A stretch of DNA of 64,000 nucleotides. Origin: a virus. Under the pieces are notes generated by a model. It saw nothing but the letters and a program-made list of their open reading frames with translations, was not told where the DNA came from and did not search any database. A program made the position numbers and the translations under genes. Shown in pieces: positions 5,693-30,624 of this stretch; position 1 is the stretch's first letter, and each line of letters opens with the position of its first letter. The stretch lies in the IMG/VR virus record IMGVR_UViG_3300010391_000021, positions 1 through 64,000 of that record; one strand, given 5' to 3'.

Positions 5693-7221
5693 AGAATATA
5701 TTAGTTACAGGCGCGGGAGGATTCATTGGCCATCATTTAGTCAAAAGGCTAAAAAAGGACGGCCATTGGGTGCGCGGGGTTGATATTAAAAACCCCGAAT
5801 TTGAATTAACCTATGCCGATGAGTTTCTGAGGCTAGACCTTCGAGAATATACAAACTGTCTTGTATCCGTTAAGGACATTGATGAAGTTTATAATTTAGC
5901 TGCCGACATGGGTGGTATCGGATACATCACCGAGCATCTGGCGGACATTGCTCGTAACAATATTCTTATTAATGTTAATATGTTGGAAGCAGCAAAGGTT
6001 AAAAAAGTAAAAAAATTCCTTTTCTCTTCTTCGGCTTGTGTTTACTCACAGAGCAGGCAACATGATGAAAATGTTACTCCCTTAAAAGAAGCGGATGCTT
6101 ATCCCGCCGATCCCGAGCCTGGATATGGGTGGGAAAAATTGTTTGCAGAACAGATGTGCGAGTATTATCAAAAAGATCACAAATTAGATATACGGATTGT
6201 TAGATTTCATAATGTCTACGGTCCTTTAGGCACGTACGAAGGTGGAAAAGAAAAAGCACCCGCAGCCGTGTGCCGAAAAATGGCGGTAGCTATTGATGGG
6301 GATGAAATAGAAGTTTGGGGAGACGGCCAGCAAACCCGATCTTTCATGTATATAGACGATTGTGTCGAAGGATTGGTCAGACTGATGTCTTCGGACTATC
6401 AGAAACCTCTTAATTTAGGAACAGAAGAACTTATTTCAGTAAACGGATTGTTTAACAAAGTTGGAGATATCGCCAAAAGACCGTTTTCCAAGAAACATGA
6501 TTTAACAAAACCCCAAGGAGTTAGAGGCAGAAACTCTGACAATTCGAAACTTCGTGAAGTTCTTGGTTGGGAACCTTCTATCAATTTAGACGAAGGCTTG
6601 AGAAAAACATACGAATGGATTGAATATACAATTCTCCATCGTGTTTCAGCAACCAAATGGGATTCTGAAGGCGGGGAGCACAGCTTACGATTAGACTTTC
6701 CTATAAATAATCAGAGTTTGGTTTACGAAGTGGGTGGGTATCGGGGTGAGTGGGCCGCACAGATAGCTAAAAAATACAACCCCACAATCCATATTTTTGA
6801 ACCTGTCGCAAACTATTACAAAGAACTATTAAGTCGATTTAGAGAAAACTCCCGAGTCCAAATATTCAACTATGGTCTTTTGGACCATGCGGATTGGAAA
6901 GACATCTATTTAGATGGCAGCGGGTCTAGTTTATACGAGGAAAAACCAAACTGTGAAAGAATCCAGTTGGTTGACATATCAACTTTGCCGGTTCCGGACG
7001 TAATCAGTATCAATGCGGAAGGGGCGGAATACCCTTTATTACAGAGAATGTTAGAAACAGGTTGGGCACAAAAGTGCAAACACATTCAAATCCAGTTTCA
7101 CAATGTTCATGTAGGTGCGCGGGACTTGCGTAAGAAAATTCGACAAGCTTTATCAACGACGCACGAAGAAGTTTTTAATTATCCTTTTGTTTGGGAGCGA
7201 TGGAGCTTGAAAACCCAATAA
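5689..7221 (+). CDS. GDP-mannose 3,5-epimerase fused to FkbM-like methyltransferase
   Basis: A 510-residue two-domain protein. Residues 1 to about 315 match GDP-mannose 3,5-epimerase closely: GAGGFIG NAD loop at 8-14, AADMGGIGYI at 71-80, SSACVYS with the catalytic cysteine at about 117, YxxxK at 146-150, and the GGKEKAPAAVCRK segment with the second catalytic lysine. The product would be GDP-L-galactose or GDP-L-gulose. Residues 320-510 form a second domain with VYEVGGYRGEWAAQ, IFEPV and INAEGAEY, as in FkbM methyltransferases. ATG 5689 overlaps the previous stop. The fusion is unusual. Confidence 0.8.
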   Translation: MKNILVTGAGGFIGHHLVKRLKKDGHWVRGVDIKNPEFELTYADEFLRLDLREYTNCLVSVKDIDEVYNLAADMGGIGYITEHLADIARNNILINVNMLEAAKVKKVKKFLFSSSACVYSQSRQHDENVTPLKEADAYPADPEPGYGWEKLFAEQMCEYYQKDHKLDIRIVRFHNVYGPLGTYEGGKEKAPAAVCRKMAVAIDGDEIEVWGDGQQTRSFMYIDDCVEGLVRLMSSDYQKPLNLGTEELISVNGLFNKVGDIAKRPFSKKHDLTKPQGVRGRNSDNSKLREVLGWEPSINLDEGLRKTYEWIEYTILHRVSATKWDSEGGEHSLRLDFPINNQSLVYEVGGYRGEWAAQIAKKYNPTIHIFEPVANYYKELLSRFRENSRVQIFNYGLLDHADWKDIYLDGSGSSLYEEKPNCERIQLVDISTLPVPDVISINAEGAEYPLLQRMLETGWAQKCKHIQIQFHNVHVGARDLRKKIRQALSTTHEEVFNYPFVWERWSLKTQ

Positions 7222-7895
7222 AAATGTATCAAATCCAGTCCTTCTACGAACAGTTTTTGAGATCGGACGATTTGGTGTTTGATATTGGAGCTAACATCGG
7301 TTCGAAAACTGAGATTTTTAGAAACATAGGTTGTAAAGTGATATCAGTCGAACCGCATGATTCGTGCATACCGATACTCAAAAATAAATTCGTAAATGAT
7401 AGTCAAGTTATTATATTACGGAAAGCCCTTGGCGCTTCCGCAGGATCGGCACAGTTAATTACAGGAGAAGCGGCTTGCATTTCTTCTTTATCTCCTGAAT
7501 GGGTTGCGGCAGTCACCAAGACCGACCGATTTGGCGGATATAAATGGACAGGAAAACAAACGGTTGAAGTTACCACTCTTGATACTCTGGTTTCCTTCTA
7601 CGGTGTTCCCGCTTTTATAAAAATAGATGTTGAGGGTTTTGAACATAAAGTTTTAGAAGGATTGTCTCAGCCCGTAAAAGCTCTTTCTTTTGAGTTTACG
7701 CCTGAGTATCTAGAATCGGCAGAAAAGTGTATAAAGCATCTTGAAGGTCTGGGTTCTGTGGAGTTCGCTTATTCGGTAAAAGAAACGACGGAAATCCGCC
7801 CATTGTGGGTTTCTGGTAAAGAACTTCTAGAGACTCTTAAAGGGTTTGTAGGAGATACTCAATTATACGGGGATGTGTACGCTAGATTCGTATGA
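7200..7895 (+). CDS. FkbM family methyltransferase
   Basis: A 231-residue protein with the FkbM order: VFDIGANIGSKTE SAM loop, VISVEPH, and the FIKIDVEGFEHKVLEGL motif that binds the substrate side. ATG 7200 lies inside the end of the previous gene. The fused FkbM-like domain next door is probably a diverged relative. It likely O-methylates a sugar of the glycan. Confidence 0.8.
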   Translation: MELENPIKMYQIQSFYEQFLRSDDLVFDIGANIGSKTEIFRNIGCKVISVEPHDSCIPILKNKFVNDSQVIILRKALGASAGSAQLITGEAACISSLSPEWVAAVTKTDRFGGYKWTGKQTVEVTTLDTLVSFYGVPAFIKIDVEGFEHKVLEGLSQPVKALSFEFTPEYLESAEKCIKHLEGLGSVEFAYSVKETTEIRPLWVSGKELLETLKGFVGDTQLYGDVYARFV

Positions 7896-24294: not shown

Positions 24295-26857
24295 ATGGCT
24301 TTTTCACCGGCTAAATGGTAAGCTGGCCGGATTAAATCTTGCCAAATCGGTGAACATCTGGTATAATTAATACTAGACAATACCGAGGAAACCTTATGAA
24401 CAATACAAACAAATGGTCGTATCTGGCCGGAGTATTCGATGGAGAGGGGTCTGTAGGAATTGCGATTCATAAACTCAATTCTTCAACCCATCTTGTTATT
24501 TCTCTTTCAAGCACCAATATCGAACTGATGGAATGGTGCATAAAACATTTTGGGGGTGTCTACTATACGCAAAGTCGGGGAACTCACCGAATTGAATATA
24601 AATGGATGCCAAAAGGAAAGAAAAACCGAGAAGTTTTTTTTCTCGGAATTCTTCCATATCTCATCATTAAGAGAAAACAAGTTTTATTGGCCTTGGAATA
24701 TGATAGGCTAGGTTCTCACAATCCCGAAGCACGAACAAAAATGCGAGAACAGATGCTCTCTTTCAACAAGGGTTCTGTAGAGACTAATACGCAAGACGCG
24801 GCTCCCGCCGTGATGATCGAGTCCGAACTCATTGGGGACAATGAGAGTGCACCGGATGTGAATCCGGGTTTTGATTGGGCCGCTTTGCAGCGACTCAGAC
24901 AAATTTAGCCTAAACACCGTTAGGCAATAACCAGTCAAATCTGCCTCAGTCTACTGTGCGCTATTATGACAAAAAGTTCCGCGAGAACTTGAAGGCACAG
25001 ACCCCCTTCGTCGCTTGCTCCGAACGTTTGGACCTACCGATGAAGAGTGGCAACCAGTATAACATGTATTTGTACGTTCCTCTGGCCGCGAATACTTCGC
25101 AGACCACGGAAGGTACTGTAGGTAGTTCCGTTTCGGTTAGCGTTCTGAATACTTCGGCCACGATTGGCGAATACGCAGACTACGCCAACTTCTCTTCGCT
25201 GTCCCTCGCAACTGCGATTGACAACACCGTAGAGAACGTTGCCCGCGAAATGGCGTATCGTCTGGGTGAATCTCTGTCCGCTCTCGTCCGCGCAACTGCT
25301 GACGGCGCGAATACGGTTGACTCAAGCGTTCGCACTTTGCTATCCGCGACAAGCACCACGAGTTTCACAACTCTGTCGCTGACCTACATCCGTAACGCCG
25401 TCCAGAGTTTGGCCGGTCGTTCGGTTCGCCCGTTCGATGAGGCTTCCAAAGCGTATGCTGGCGTTATCCATTTCTAAAAGGGTGGATATAAAACTTGACT
25501 AAATCGGTGGACATCTATATAATATAGACAATACCGAGGTAAGGTCCAATGTTTCAAATAGACAAGACAAAATGCTCGTATCTGGGCGGCTTGGTTGATG
25601 GTGAGGGCAATATTTGCATCTGGCGTACCGAATCCCGTGCGCATGATTATAAAGTCTCTGGAAAGACCTATGGGTCCTTCAATTTGAGGCTGCATATTGC
25701 AAACACCAGCTTAACACTCATGAAATGGTTAGTCTCGAATTTTGGCGGTGTTTATCACTGCAAAAGAGAAGCCACAGATAAGCATGCAACTGCTTATGAA
25801 TGGCGTCCAAAAGGCGAGGGAAACACAAAACGTACTCTTCTGGCGATTTTGCCTTATCTCGTGATTAAACGAGAGCAAGCAATTCTGGCACTCAAATATA
25901 TTGATCTGCCACAACAAGCGCCCAAAGAACGTGAACTAATCTACCAACGCATGAGACAGCTAAACCAAAAAGGACCCAAAACCGTAACGACTAATACGTC
26001 AAGCCCTGATGAAAGTCAGGTGAAGATAGAGTCTGATCTCATAGGCGACTATGAGTGTGACCCTGCGGTGACGCAGGACTCCTAAACAAAAATACCTTTC
26101 GCCCTTGGCGATGTGCTGGCAGACAACAGCAACGACAGCCCTATCGACATTTTGAAGCGCACCCCGCAAGGTTATGCTCGTTTGGATGAAATTATCTCAA
26201 CCGACCTAACCGAAGTCATCAACTTCCCGACTTCCGGCGTAAGTTTCTTCCAGTCGAACCTCGTAACCACGACTGCCAATTATAATGACGGAACGCACGG
26301 CGCTGTTACTGGCCTGACCGCGCTTCGGACTTATATCTTCGGCAGAGATGGCATCTACAGCATCAACCTTGGTGCTCAGGGTGACACGGGCTTTGGCGAC
26401 GGCGAATGGCGCAATATTCGCTGCAATATCGTTCAGAACGCTGAACCGAGCGTCGCTGATCCTAGCGGGCTGATCCCAGGTTGGACTTCGTATCGTGTAC
26501 ATTTTACGACCTCGCTTGGGCCAGACACCACAATTCGTATGAGACAGCTAGATGCCGCCAGCGCAATAAGTTAATTGTTTTCAGCCAATTACAACTGAAT
26601 ACATTTTACTATTACGCACGGAAACCTAATGCGAATTTAAAACTTGACCTGATTGACTTGAAACCTGAAATGGCAACAAGGCGGAACCCGAAAGGGACCG
26701 TGAGAGACTAAGCGGTCGAGCGCCGAAAGGTGATGCGATAGTCCGAACATACGGGAACAAAACCGTATGAGGTTGGCAGAAATGACCAATCTCAACAGCG
26801 TAAGTTGTTGATAACAGGGCGATTAGGGAAATCGACGCAGCCAGCGCAATTTCGTAA
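24295..26857 (+). CDS. Major capsid protein (N4-gp56-like), split by three group I introns
   Basis: Exons by P1/P10 pairing: 24295-24312, about 24923-25471, 26095-26538 and 26822-26857. Joined, they give about 348 residues in one frame, with every junction between codons. The product resembles N4-gp56-family capsid proteins: STVRYYDKKFRENLKAQTPF near the start, then AGVIH-PFALGDVLAD spanning the second junction, where His-Pro is the family's usual pair. It follows scaffold and GNAT genes and a structured leader. The unspliced message stops after eight codons at 24319, so intron 1 must be removed to make capsid. Confidence 0.85.
24339..24367 (+). promoter_or_regulatory. Sigma70-like promoter inside intron 1
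   Basis: TTGCCA (24339-24344), 17 bases, TATAAT (24362-24367). It lies 29 bases upstream of the endonuclease start and overlaps the 5' structured part of the ribozyme. Intron 2 has the equivalent element. Confidence 0.65.
24396..24908 (+). CDS. LAGLIDADG homing endonuclease (intron 1)
   Basis: A 170-residue protein with one clear LAGLIDADG motif near the start (SYLAGVFDGEGSVGI), followed by LMEWCIKHFGGVYY and FFLGILPYLIIKRKQVLLAL, which is the second-helix region. A single motif suggests a homodimer. GAGGAA precedes the ATG. It is clearly related to the intron 2 protein. The last 40 or so codons run through ribozyme elements P7 to P9.1, so the same bases encode protein and catalytic RNA. Confidence 0.85.
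   Translation: MNNTNKWSYLAGVFDGEGSVGIAIHKLNSSTHLVISLSSTNIELMEWCIKHFGGVYYTQSRGTHRIEYKWMPKGKKNREVFFLGILPYLIIKRKQVLLALEYDRLGSHNPEARTKMREQMLSFNKGSVETNTQDAAPAVMIESELIGDNESAPDVNPGFDWAALQRLRQI
24923..25471 (+). CDS. Major capsid protein, exon 2
   Basis: This exon encodes capsid residues 7 to about 189, including VRYYDKKFRENL, a SERLDLPMKSGN strand and the AYAGVIH segment that ends it. The exact first base depends on the intron 1 splice site (24920 or 24923); the frame is certain. The 3' end after CAT at 25471 is fixed by the P1 pairing of intron 2. Without splicing the frame would run on only to a TAA at 25475. Confidence 0.8.
25495..25523 (+). promoter_or_regulatory. Sigma70-like promoter inside intron 2
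   Basis: TTGACT (25495-25500), 17 bases, then a perfect TATAAT (25518-25523), 26 bases upstream of the endonuclease ATG. It is placed exactly like the promoter in intron 1 and overlaps the ribozyme's 5' stem. Confidence 0.7.
25549..26085 (+). CDS. LAGLIDADG homing endonuclease (intron 2)
   Basis: A 178-residue relative of the intron 1 enzyme. SYLGGLVDGEGNICI is the LAGLIDADG motif, followed by LMKWLVSNFGGVYH and LLAILPYLVIKREQAILALKY. It would cut intron-less capsid genes at the exon 2/exon 3 junction and promote intron copying. GAGGTAAGG precedes the ATG. The C-terminal 35 codons overlap P7 to P9.1 of the ribozyme. The stop lies nine bases before the 3' splice site. Confidence 0.85.
   Translation: MFQIDKTKCSYLGGLVDGEGNICIWRTESRAHDYKVSGKTYGSFNLRLHIANTSLTLMKWLVSNFGGVYHCKREATDKHATAYEWRPKGEGNTKRTLLAILPYLVIKREQAILALKYIDLPQQAPKERELIYQRMRQLNQKGPKTVTTNTSSPDESQVKIESDLIGDYECDPAVTQDS
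26095..26538 (+). CDS. Major capsid protein, exon 3
   Basis: It encodes capsid residues of the C-terminal half, from PFALGDVLAD through PQGYARLDEI, LRTYIFGRDGIYSINL and a late VHFTTSLGPDTTIR. The exon ends after CGT at 26538, set by P1 of intron 3. Reading on without splicing gives 11 more codons and a TAA at 26572 that mimic the true C-terminus encoded by exon 4. Confidence 0.85.
26539..26821 (+). ncRNA. ORF-less group I intron 3 with duplicated capsid C-terminus
   Basis: Exon AAUUCGU (26532-26538) pairs with GCGAAUU (26631-26637) as P1. The adjoining CCUAAU (26625-26630) pairs with exon 4 AUUAGG (26822-26827) as P10, so both splice sites are fixed by one continuous guide. The intron ends in G. 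P7 strands GACTA (26706-26710) and TAGTC (26739-26743) are clear. The first 36 intron bases form part of a 92-base P1 loop and encode MRQLDAASAIS plus stop, nearly identical to exon 4. No endonuclease is present. Bases 26858-26974 downstream hold only a promoter and hairpin. Confidence 0.85.
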
Positions 26858-26894: not shown

Positions 26895-26919
26895 ATTGTT
26901 GATGCATCAAATTGGAAAA

Positions 26920-26946
26920 GAGGCGGGTGCCTTCATCATCCGCCTC
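26920..26946 (+). promoter_or_regulatory. Hairpin GAGGCGG/CCGCCTC
   Basis: A seven-bp G/C-rich stem with a 13-base loop follows the promoter. There is no U-tract, so it is more likely a leader structure than an intrinsic terminator. Confidence 0.4.
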
Positions 26947-26974
26947 CGATCCGATTCCCTATGAAGGAGGGAAC

Positions 26975-27091
26975 ATGATAGGTGAAAAATATTTTAGATA
27001 TGAAGTTTTGATGTTTGCTTGGAAAGAAAAACAACAAAGATATTATTTATGTGTTTGTGAATGCGGCGCGTTGCGATGCGCGGCGGTTTGA
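26975..27091 (+). CDS. Short CxC protein, possibly a truncated AP2/HNH start
   Basis: A 38-residue protein with an excellent ribosome binding site (GAAGGAGGG). YYLCVCECGALR matches the cysteine-rich beginning of AP2-type homing endonuclease proteins (xCxCxCG), but the rest of such a protein is absent. It may be a remnant next to the intron-rich capsid gene. Confidence 0.4.
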   Translation: MIGEKYFRYEVLMFAWKEKQQRYYLCVCECGALRCAAV

Positions 27092-28695: not shown

Positions 28696-29279
28696 CTAAA
28701 CCCCGTTGGGAGTCTTATGCTGATGAAATTATAGGCAAAGACACGCCCGAGATGGAAGCCGCAATCGCTGAATATGCGAAAAATAGATACGAGGGAAAAA
28801 GTTCTTCGCAAAACGAAGAAGAACTTGCCCGATGGAAAGAAGGAAATTCTGAAATAGCTAAAGAATACCAATGGGTAAAGCCGGAAGAATACGCTGACGA
28901 AGCGGCGCGGGTTGGTCGCGTAATGAGTCACGAAGAGTTTATTAGAATTTTGAGAAATAAACTCCACCTTACGTGCTTTTATCGAGAGATGAATCATCCC
29001 CAAAAGATTGCATTATGGGCAACGAAAAGAGAAGGATTGGTCCCAGAAAGCGTTGGTTGGGTAAAGCGCGGACTCACCACCGAACTTTCTATCATGCGTT
29101 TTGACGATCACGGGGTTCCTGTGGATGAGAAGTTTAGAGGATGGCGCAGCGTTTTGATGAATTTAGTTATGAAAGGTTTTCTAAAAGAACATGATGTTCG
29201 TAAAGTATTCGGACGAGCTAAAGGGTCTTGTAGTGAAAAATACAATTCTTTTATGCAGCAATTTAGGACGGTAGTATGA
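28692..29279 (+). CDS. Hypothetical protein
   Basis: A 195-residue, mainly helical, charged protein. The middle reads HEEFIRILRNKLHLTCFYREMNHPQKIALWA and the C-terminal half has strand character. I do not recognise the family. ATGA overlaps join it to both neighbours. Confidence 0.55.
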   Translation: MTKPRWESYADEIIGKDTPEMEAAIAEYAKNRYEGKSSSQNEEELARWKEGNSEIAKEYQWVKPEEYADEAARVGRVMSHEEFIRILRNKLHLTCFYREMNHPQKIALWATKREGLVPESVGWVKRGLTTELSIMRFDDHGVPVDEKFRGWRSVLMNLVMKGFLKEHDVRKVFGRAKGSCSEKYNSFMQQFRTVV

Positions 29280-29734
29280 GACCCGGACGGCCTATAAAAG
29301 ATGGATATAAAATTTGTTACAAGTGTAATCAAAATCTTCCTGTATCAGAATACTATAAAGCCTCAAGACGAAAAGAAGGTTTAGAGGATTGGTGTAAAAA
29401 GTGCACCAAAGATCGCTCAAAAAGTTACTATAAAAAAAACAAAAGATGTCTAAAGAACTCTCAGCGTTTGCGTATATACGGAATCACAGAATCAGAATAT
29501 AAGAAGATTTTTGTATTACAAGGAGAATGTTGTGCCATTTGCTGGACAACGAACCCTAATAGTAAAGACTGGCACATAGATCACGATCATATAACCAATA
29601 AAGTTAGAGGTATTCTTTGCAGCGATTGTAACCGTCTATTGGGCGGAGCACGAGACAATCCAAACATTCTTAAACTCGGTATCAAATATTTAATGAAACC
29701 AGGAATCGTTGACATAGAGAGAGTTGTTGCATAA
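29276..29734 (+). CDS. Recombination endonuclease VII family protein
   Basis: A 152-residue protein with CYKCNQNLP, WCKKCTKDRS and the core CCAICW...WHIDHDHITNKVRGILCSDCNRLLGG, so both zinc pairs and the DHDH motif are intact. It is a paralogue of the protein at 11551. As a freestanding copy between structural genes it probably behaves as a mobile endonuclease. Confidence 0.85.
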   Translation: MRPGRPIKDGYKICYKCNQNLPVSEYYKASRRKEGLEDWCKKCTKDRSKSYYKKNKRCLKNSQRLRIYGITESEYKKIFVLQGECCAICWTTNPNSKDWHIDHDHITNKVRGILCSDCNRLLGGARDNPNILKLGIKYLMKPGIVDIERVVA

Positions 29735-30054: not shown

Positions 30055-30624
30055 TTGATCGTTTATAAGATAACGAATCTATTTTATGGGACTTCATATA
30101 TCGGAAAAACTGTTCACTCTTTAGAAAGAAGATGGATTCAACACCTAAGCGACGCTATTGCCGGAAGTGAATTTTACCTACATCGGGCAATAAGAAAATA
30201 TGGGCCGGATTCCTTCTCTAAGGAAATTATTTGCGAATGTGATAGTCAAGAACAGATGTCTGAAATTGAAAAATTTTGTATTATAGCCTTTGATACGAAA
30301 GCTCCTAGTGGCTACAACATGACAGATGGAGGAGATGGTCAATCTGGTCGGAGACATTCTCAAAAATCAAGAGATAAAATAGGCGAGGCTCAACGCGGAA
30401 GAAAACTACCAGAAGAGTGGAGAAATAAAATTAGTAAAGCATTAACTGGAATTGTTCGATCTTCCAAATTTTGTAAAGATTTAAGTAATCGATGGAAAGG
30501 TAAAACTAAGACGGAAGAACAAAGAAAAAAGATAAGCGAAACTTTAAAAGGACGAAAGCTGACAGAAGAACACAGAAAAAACATTGCAGCCGCCCAATTA
30601 GGAAAAAAGAGACCAAGAAAATGA
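30055..30624 (+). CDS. GIY-YIG homing endonuclease with NUMOD3 repeats
   Basis: A 189-residue protein starting at TTG. VYKITNLFYGTSYIGKT is the GIY-YIG motif at residues 2-18, followed by SLERRWIQHL with the catalytic arginine and a glutamate in the first 90 residues. The C-terminal half has several NUMOD3 DNA-binding repeats (SQKSRDKIGEAQRGRK, TEEQRKKISETLKGRK, TEEHRKNIAAAQLGKK). It is a freestanding mobile endonuclease inserted among virion genes. Confidence 0.9.
   Translation: MIVYKITNLFYGTSYIGKTVHSLERRWIQHLSDAIAGSEFYLHRAIRKYGPDSFSKEIICECDSQEQMSEIEKFCIIAFDTKAPSGYNMTDGGDGQSGRRHSQKSRDKIGEAQRGRKLPEEWRNKISKALTGIVRSSKFCKDLSNRWKGKTKTEEQRKKISETLKGRKLTEEHRKNIAAAQLGKKRPRK

Follow-up and report, generated by a model that had tools for sequence, protein, structure and literature searches.

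The capsid gene and its introns

The window analysed here comprises 64,000 of the 70,118 bases of a soil phage record that was obtained from a metagenome assembly. The nearest annotated genome is that of Tunturiibacter phage Tunturi_3, which is 83 % identical over exon 2 of the capsid gene, and the host of the window phage is therefore probably an acidobacterium. In Tunturi_3 the capsid gene carries the annotation of a single unbroken CDS. The capsid gene was recognised by a match to the PHROG 1357 (phrog_1357) major head protein, and is interrupted by three introns that leave four exons and a spliced product of 348 residues. The exon joints were defined by intron-free relatives, and comparison with one of these, L001, sets the start of exon 2 at 24923 with GNNQ included. 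The capsid residues from the conserved R onward, close to the C-terminus, are nearly invariant among the relatives, and the AlphaFold model of the capsid has a pLDDT of 28. The features of the locus are shown in Table 1.

Table 1 Features of the capsid locus and of intron 3
Feature	Positions	Strand	Basis or remark
Capsid exon 1 (MAFSPA)	24295-24312	+	Same junction with exon 2 in intron-free L001 (MAFSPAGNNQSNLPQ)
Capsid intron 1, LAGLIDADG ORF 24396-24908, last base A	24313-24922	+	
Capsid exon 2	24923-25471	+	phrog_1357; joint GVIH/PFAL as in relatives
Capsid intron 2, LAGLIDADG ORF 25549-26085, last base A	25472-26094	+	Sub-threshold RF00028 match
Capsid exon 3	26095-26538	+	tblastn against intron-free L001-L004, 93-95 % amino acid identity
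P1 5' strand AATTCGT, last base is the 5' splice site U	26532-26538	+	7 bp with 26631-26637
Capsid intron 3, group I, no endonuclease ORF	26539-26821	+	283 nt; core covariation, P1, P10, terminal G
Second C-terminus, recoded (MRQLDAASAIS and stop), read in the frame of exon 3 and lying within the P1 loop	26539-26574	+	
Post-stop segment of the P1 loop	26575-26627	+	26602-26627 matches capsid 3' UTR of intron-free L001-L003
Internal guide CCTAATGCGAATT: P10 strand CCTAAT (26625-26630) and P1 3' strand GCGAATT (26631-26637)	26625-26637	+	
P3 5' strand CTTGACC	26643-26649	+	Both partners vary in 6 of the 7 P3 pairs
P7 5' strand GACTA	26706-26710	+	Invariant pairs with 26739-26743
P7 3' strand TAGTC	26739-26743	+	
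Capsid exon 4, IREIDAASAIS and stop, C-terminus after splicing	26822-26857	+	IRE is the type of all other members of the window's capsid clade
Homologous to post-capsid region of L004; first 34 codons of endonuclease-like gene	26919-27088	+	79 % over 154 nt; 82 % amino acid identity over 34 residues

A terminal G is near-universal in group I introns. With the joints taken from intron-free relatives, both LAGLIDADG-bearing introns of the window end in A, as do the same-site LAGLIDADG-sized introns of L079 and L089, and the endonuclease-free introns of L085, L086 and L099 there end in G. Directly after the capsid gene the window holds the beginning of an endonuclease VII-like gene, cut short (26975-27088), of which a full-length homologue is present in L004; a different endonuclease-like gene lies at this position in L001-L003, and the position is a hot spot for free-standing endonucleases. 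Further along the structural region, 29276-29734 and 30055-30624 carry an endonuclease VII, and a GIY-YIG gene with NUMOD3.

Structure of intron 3 and the recoded gene end in its P1 loop

No ORF of at least 80 aa was found within intron 3, and hence no homing endonuclease gene. The initial annotation had fixed the bounds of this intron by the pairing of an internal guide with both exon ends, and had described a P1 loop of 92 bases; the coordinates and letters hold, and the loop spans 26539-26630. P1 is a helix of 7 bp (AATTCGT/GCGAATT) whose splice-site pair is U.G, P10 joins CCTAAT (26625-26630) to ATTAGG (26822-26827) over 6 bp, the position of the guide agrees with that in related introns, and the 3' end reads ..GGGCG at 26821, the terminal G being present. 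A 92-nt loop on P1 is unusual, and it is predicted to fold as an extended hairpin.

The general group I model of Rfam (RF00028) gave no match to intron 3 even at E<=5, and matched only intron 2, below threshold. This miss reflects the reach of a single general model, whose threshold score is no defining chemical feature of a group I intron, and the evidence for the intron is therefore comparative rather than a library match. Related introns were located by pattern scans of IMG/VR, and 11 of them (from the window and other IMG/VR capsid genes) were aligned with the canonical group I pairing P3-P9.1 imposed. Across the 39 pairs tested, the core, including the P3/P7 pseudoknot, was paired in 96.3 % of cells, and two-sided changes occurred in 27 of the 39 pairs compared with a shuffle mean of 13.1, a count reached in none of 500 shuffles. 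The signal was lost when the pairing partners were slid; P7 itself is invariant. An intron at the same site as intron 3 is present in the near-identical records L085 and L086 and in L087, and P1 covaries with the exon among them, being AATTCGT/GCGAATT in the window, AATCCGT/GCGGATT in L086 and TATCCGT/GCGGATA in L087, so that 7 bp are kept in all three (exon position -4 is T-A in the window versus C-G in L086). P10 has no mismatch in the window or in L086 and is partial in L087. Since P1, P10 and the covarying core are all intact, the splicing competence of intron 3 is well supported by its structure.

Reading on from exon 3 into the intron, the unspliced capsid ORF (26113-26574) ends ..TTIRMRQLDAASAIS and stop, and the spliced ORF ends ..TTIRIREIDAASAIS and stop. 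The gene thus has the two interchangeable C-termini that had been described at the outset, MRQLDAASAIS and IREIDAASAIS, each with a stop; over 36 nt each, the copy and exon 4 agree at 24 of the 36 bases and at 8 of the 11 residues, and the chance of at least 8 of 11 residue matches with a stop at codon 12, given the base composition of the intron, is ~1e-9. When exon 4 was altered by 12 random changes, as much protein identity was retained in only 78 of 200,000 simulations. Purifying selection on the copy in place would look the same as selection in its source gene. By codon usage the copy does not stand out as foreign. A 15-nt match of the copy to the endonuclease ORF of intron 2 (CGYATGAGACAGCTA) was set aside as chance, about 0.2 such matches being expected by our own estimate.

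As the upstream frame amounts to a whole capsid gene, stop and UTR included, the intron could in principle be dead; the unspliced frame would then be the sole source of capsid, and the core and exon 4 would be remnants lying behind an intact gene. Against this, P1, P10, all of P3-P9 and the terminal G have been kept, P1 has covaried with the exon, and in both the window and L087 exon 4 is undamaged and of the clade type. A dead intron is accordingly regarded as very improbable.

Same-site introns and the origin of the copy

The same-site introns of the relatives differ in whether they hold a copy. The L085/L086 intron resembles that of the window in its insertion site, guide and P10, and its core is 88 % identical (169 of 193 alignment columns), but it begins ATGTCATGGTAAAGTCCTAAT followed by GCGGATT and has a P1 loop of 21 nt without a C-terminal copy; the unspliced reading frame of this type would end TIRMSW and stop. 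The L087 intron, which has a core ~78 % identical to that of the window, does have a recoded C-terminus and stop at its start (TTGAGAACCATAGATGCTGCAAGTGCAATATCCTAA, LRTIDAASAIS and stop) ahead of an exon 4 encoding IREIDAASAIS and stop, but it differs from the window intron in its 51-nt loop, the lack of a UTR segment, the first residues LRT and its occurrence in a different capsid clade. The L087 copy and the L087 exon differ at 14 of 36 bases and at 2 residues, and that much protein identity was retained in 1 of 200,000 random-change simulations. As an analogous copy is present in L087, the feature is not unique to the window, and a recoded copy is found in two of three independent same-site introns among >100 capsid loci. 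Copies were not found in introns at different positions near the C-terminus, whether after TTI (L091-L095, L098, L100-L106) or at GP/DTT (L082-L084, L088, L099). Matches to the copy pattern in L089 and L090 came only from a promoter-like TTGACT that follows an ordinary capsid end, and one in L107 (Omnitrophota) was due to chance.

Beside the intron, the 5' exons of the window and L086 are ~73 % identical, and their exons 4 are alike at 30 of 36 bases. The greater likeness to L086 in the core than in the 5' exon is consistent with a mobile intron, and the likeness of exon 4 fits movement of the intron together with its 3' flank, for which so short an exon is weak evidence. The capsid gene of L086 has about five introns, of which two related endonuclease-free ones (6859-7059 and 7177-7390) occupy sites that share an ATCCGT target and a GCGGAT guide, and look as though one had moved by guide-directed insertion.

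The C-termini of 80 relatives are of three types, IRE (34), MRQ (32) and QRQ (14), which mostly track the capsid tree. All other members of the window's clade, and of that of L087, have IRE, so that in both phages the spliced-in exon 4 is of the clade type and the copy within the intron is atypical; the Leu of the MRQL copy is absent from all 80. Residues 338 and 340 (L001 numbering) covary, no combination other than those of IRE, MRQ and QRQ occurring in the 80, which suggests that they are in contact or strongly linked. Both IRE (34/80) and MRQ (32/80) being common natural types, of which the window encodes one each, splicing might be thought to set a useful ratio of the two in one virion. 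The LRT of L087 is no known allele, however, and the two forms predicted for the window differ by three conservative residues, with nothing in the sequence to favour regulation; a deliberate two-form capsid is consequently held to be improbable.

The part of the loop that follows the stop points to the source of the copy. Between 26602 and 26627 it can be aligned with the capsid 3' UTR of L001-L003 (ATTTTACTATTAC.....GAAACCT) at a nearly equal distance from the stop, with a local score of 30 against a null maximum of 25, and across the entire IMG/VR collection the pattern is restricted to these three contigs, which are among the closest intron-free relatives of the window. From CCTAATGCG onward the window is like the L086-type loop and guide. 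The UTR match runs up to, and the L086-type loop begins from, a shared CCT, and the joint is therefore placed at CCT (26625-26627), which would represent microhomology between two parental sequences. Given that the post-stop loop matches the UTR of L001-L003, the P1 loop appears to have captured a complete gene end (C-terminus, stop and ~50 nt of UTR) by recombination of intron-bearing and intron-free alleles. The resident part may have been the gene end, behind which an intron and its 3' exon were added, or the intron, ahead of which a gene end was placed; sliding comparison revealed no clear breakpoint within exon 3. The earlier view that the copy is not a recent direct duplication is supported. 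That a homologous gene end had been acquired with the intron is borne out in part: the UTR match to L001-L003 favours a homologous end, and simple arrival with the intron is contradicted by L085/L086, in which the same-site intron has no copy, so that the copy was probably added to such an intron.

Two gene ends that resemble different relatives, in a metagenome assembly, might also have been joined by the assembler as a chimera of intron-bearing and intron-free alleles. The two sequences share only a very short stretch at the junction, less than an assembler would need for an overlap, which argues against a chimera; in addition, the P1 guide fits this exact exon, including its changed base, and L087, an independent contig, has the same layout. 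We therefore judge an assembly artefact to be extremely unlikely.

A recombinant that is real may still be without a selected role, the gene end having been trapped incidentally in the P1 loop of an efficiently splicing intron and the copy being rarely translated. A copy with its UTR is the expected residue of illegitimate exchange, and a Leu found in 0 of 80 relatives is as would be seen under relaxed constraint. A second capsid clade has a recoded copy at the same site, however, and both copies are stop-free with DAASAIS exact, that of L087 despite 14 of 36 different bases and with only 2 different residues, and an incidental mosaic is on these grounds considered unlikely.

Proposed function and comparison with known systems

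The preferred explanation, to which we assign a probability of about 0.7, is that intron 3 is a splicing-competent intron with a captured gene end in its P1 loop, by which full-length capsid is obtained from spliced and unspliced mRNA alike. In bacteria translation follows transcription, and a ribosome that has crossed the 5' splice site by the time P1 forms would read the copy and stop at 26574, which lies 56 nt upstream of the P1 guide strand and well upstream of the ribozyme core, so that unspliced mRNA would yield a full-length capsid of the MRQL form. Once the 5' site is cleared, P1 could form, the intron would be removed and later ribosomes would read exon 4, giving a full-length capsid of the IRE form, and neither product would be truncated. 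In the copy-free arrangement of L086, each unspliced message would instead give a capsid lacking the last, nearly invariant residues. Since both messages would be read to full length, loss of splicing would no longer cost coat protein, and the suggestion in the initial annotation that the arrangement renders capsid production insensitive to splicing thus gains support. Selection against a poor splicer may be relieved in this way, and such insurance may be the reason why the copy has persisted. The maintenance of P1 and P10 pairing and the covariation of P1 suggest that splicing is nevertheless still important to the phage.

The recoding of the copy may itself be of consequence. An unrecoded copy of exon 4 opening the intron (AATTCGTATTAGG) would pair with all 13 guide bases and be a rival to P10, whereas the actual ATGAGA would pair with the guide incompletely, and no 13-bp P1-P10 duplex would form. 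Recoding would also abolish a direct repeat that could permit loss of the intron. A broader and more tentative proposal, which we think rather less likely to be right than wrong, is that a protein-equivalent recoded copy in the P1 loop is a recurrent route by which a group I intron becomes harmless regardless of splicing, the recoding being maintained against intron loss and P1-P10 jamming and two full-length capsid forms being made. As a copy is found in just two of three independent same-site introns, among >100 capsid loci, it may instead be a transient product of recombination.

Mobile elements are known to have duplicated C-termini in fungal mitochondria, in Allomyces atp6 and in atp6, atp9, cox2 and nad3 of Glomus sp. 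(PMC3630166), and likewise in atp6 and cox2 of Phlebia radiata (PMC4019555). The likeness of the window to these cases, to which attention had been drawn before, is upheld by PMC3630166: the fungal elements also place a strongly recoded in-frame C-terminus upstream (64-81 % nucleotide identity, with the protein nearly the same) and displace the native end downstream. They differ in that the element supplying the new end carries an endonuclease gene, whereas the window intron is 283 nt long and endonuclease-free, and in that the fungal displaced end is not spliced back and does not enter the product, and in atp6 and cox2 is absent even from the mRNA. The window element lacks an endonuclease and is itself an intact intron, and its displaced end should therefore still be usable; we predict that it is rejoined to the gene by splicing, the opposite of the fungal case. 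The window arrangement would thus be a variation on fungal C-terminal displacement in which both endings are usable. Among phages, a group I intron is present in the capsid gene of mycobacteriophage LittleE and has a counterpart without endonuclease in a tail gene of BAKA/Optimus, according to excerpts of the source (PMC3706429). These introns resemble that of the window in being group I introns of structural genes with endonuclease-free variants, and their splicing was demonstrated by RT-PCR; the excerpts describe no intron-borne copy of host coding sequence (PMC3706429). A search of openly accessible papers found no report of a phage intron with such a C-terminal copy.

If the proposed working is correct, the fungal mitochondrial phenomenon is extended to phages in a form with both endings usable. 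On the usual view, an intron in an essential late gene survives only through good splicing or efficient homing, and a ribozyme that carries a spare ending of its host gene would provide a third route, in which insertion at the 3' end costs almost nothing even when splicing fails. The idea can be tested directly, since the layout is shared by two clades, a same-site control lacks the copy and intron-free relatives exist.

Introns related to intron 3 also occur outside capsid genes of this kind. L110 (from 7388) and L109 (from 3138, reverse complement) have related introns with the same type of guide in unrelated phage genes, and an unannotated stretch of Roseobacter phage CRP-118 (OR420741.1, 35060-35184) is 76 % identical to the intron 3 core and is probably an unrecognised group I intron.
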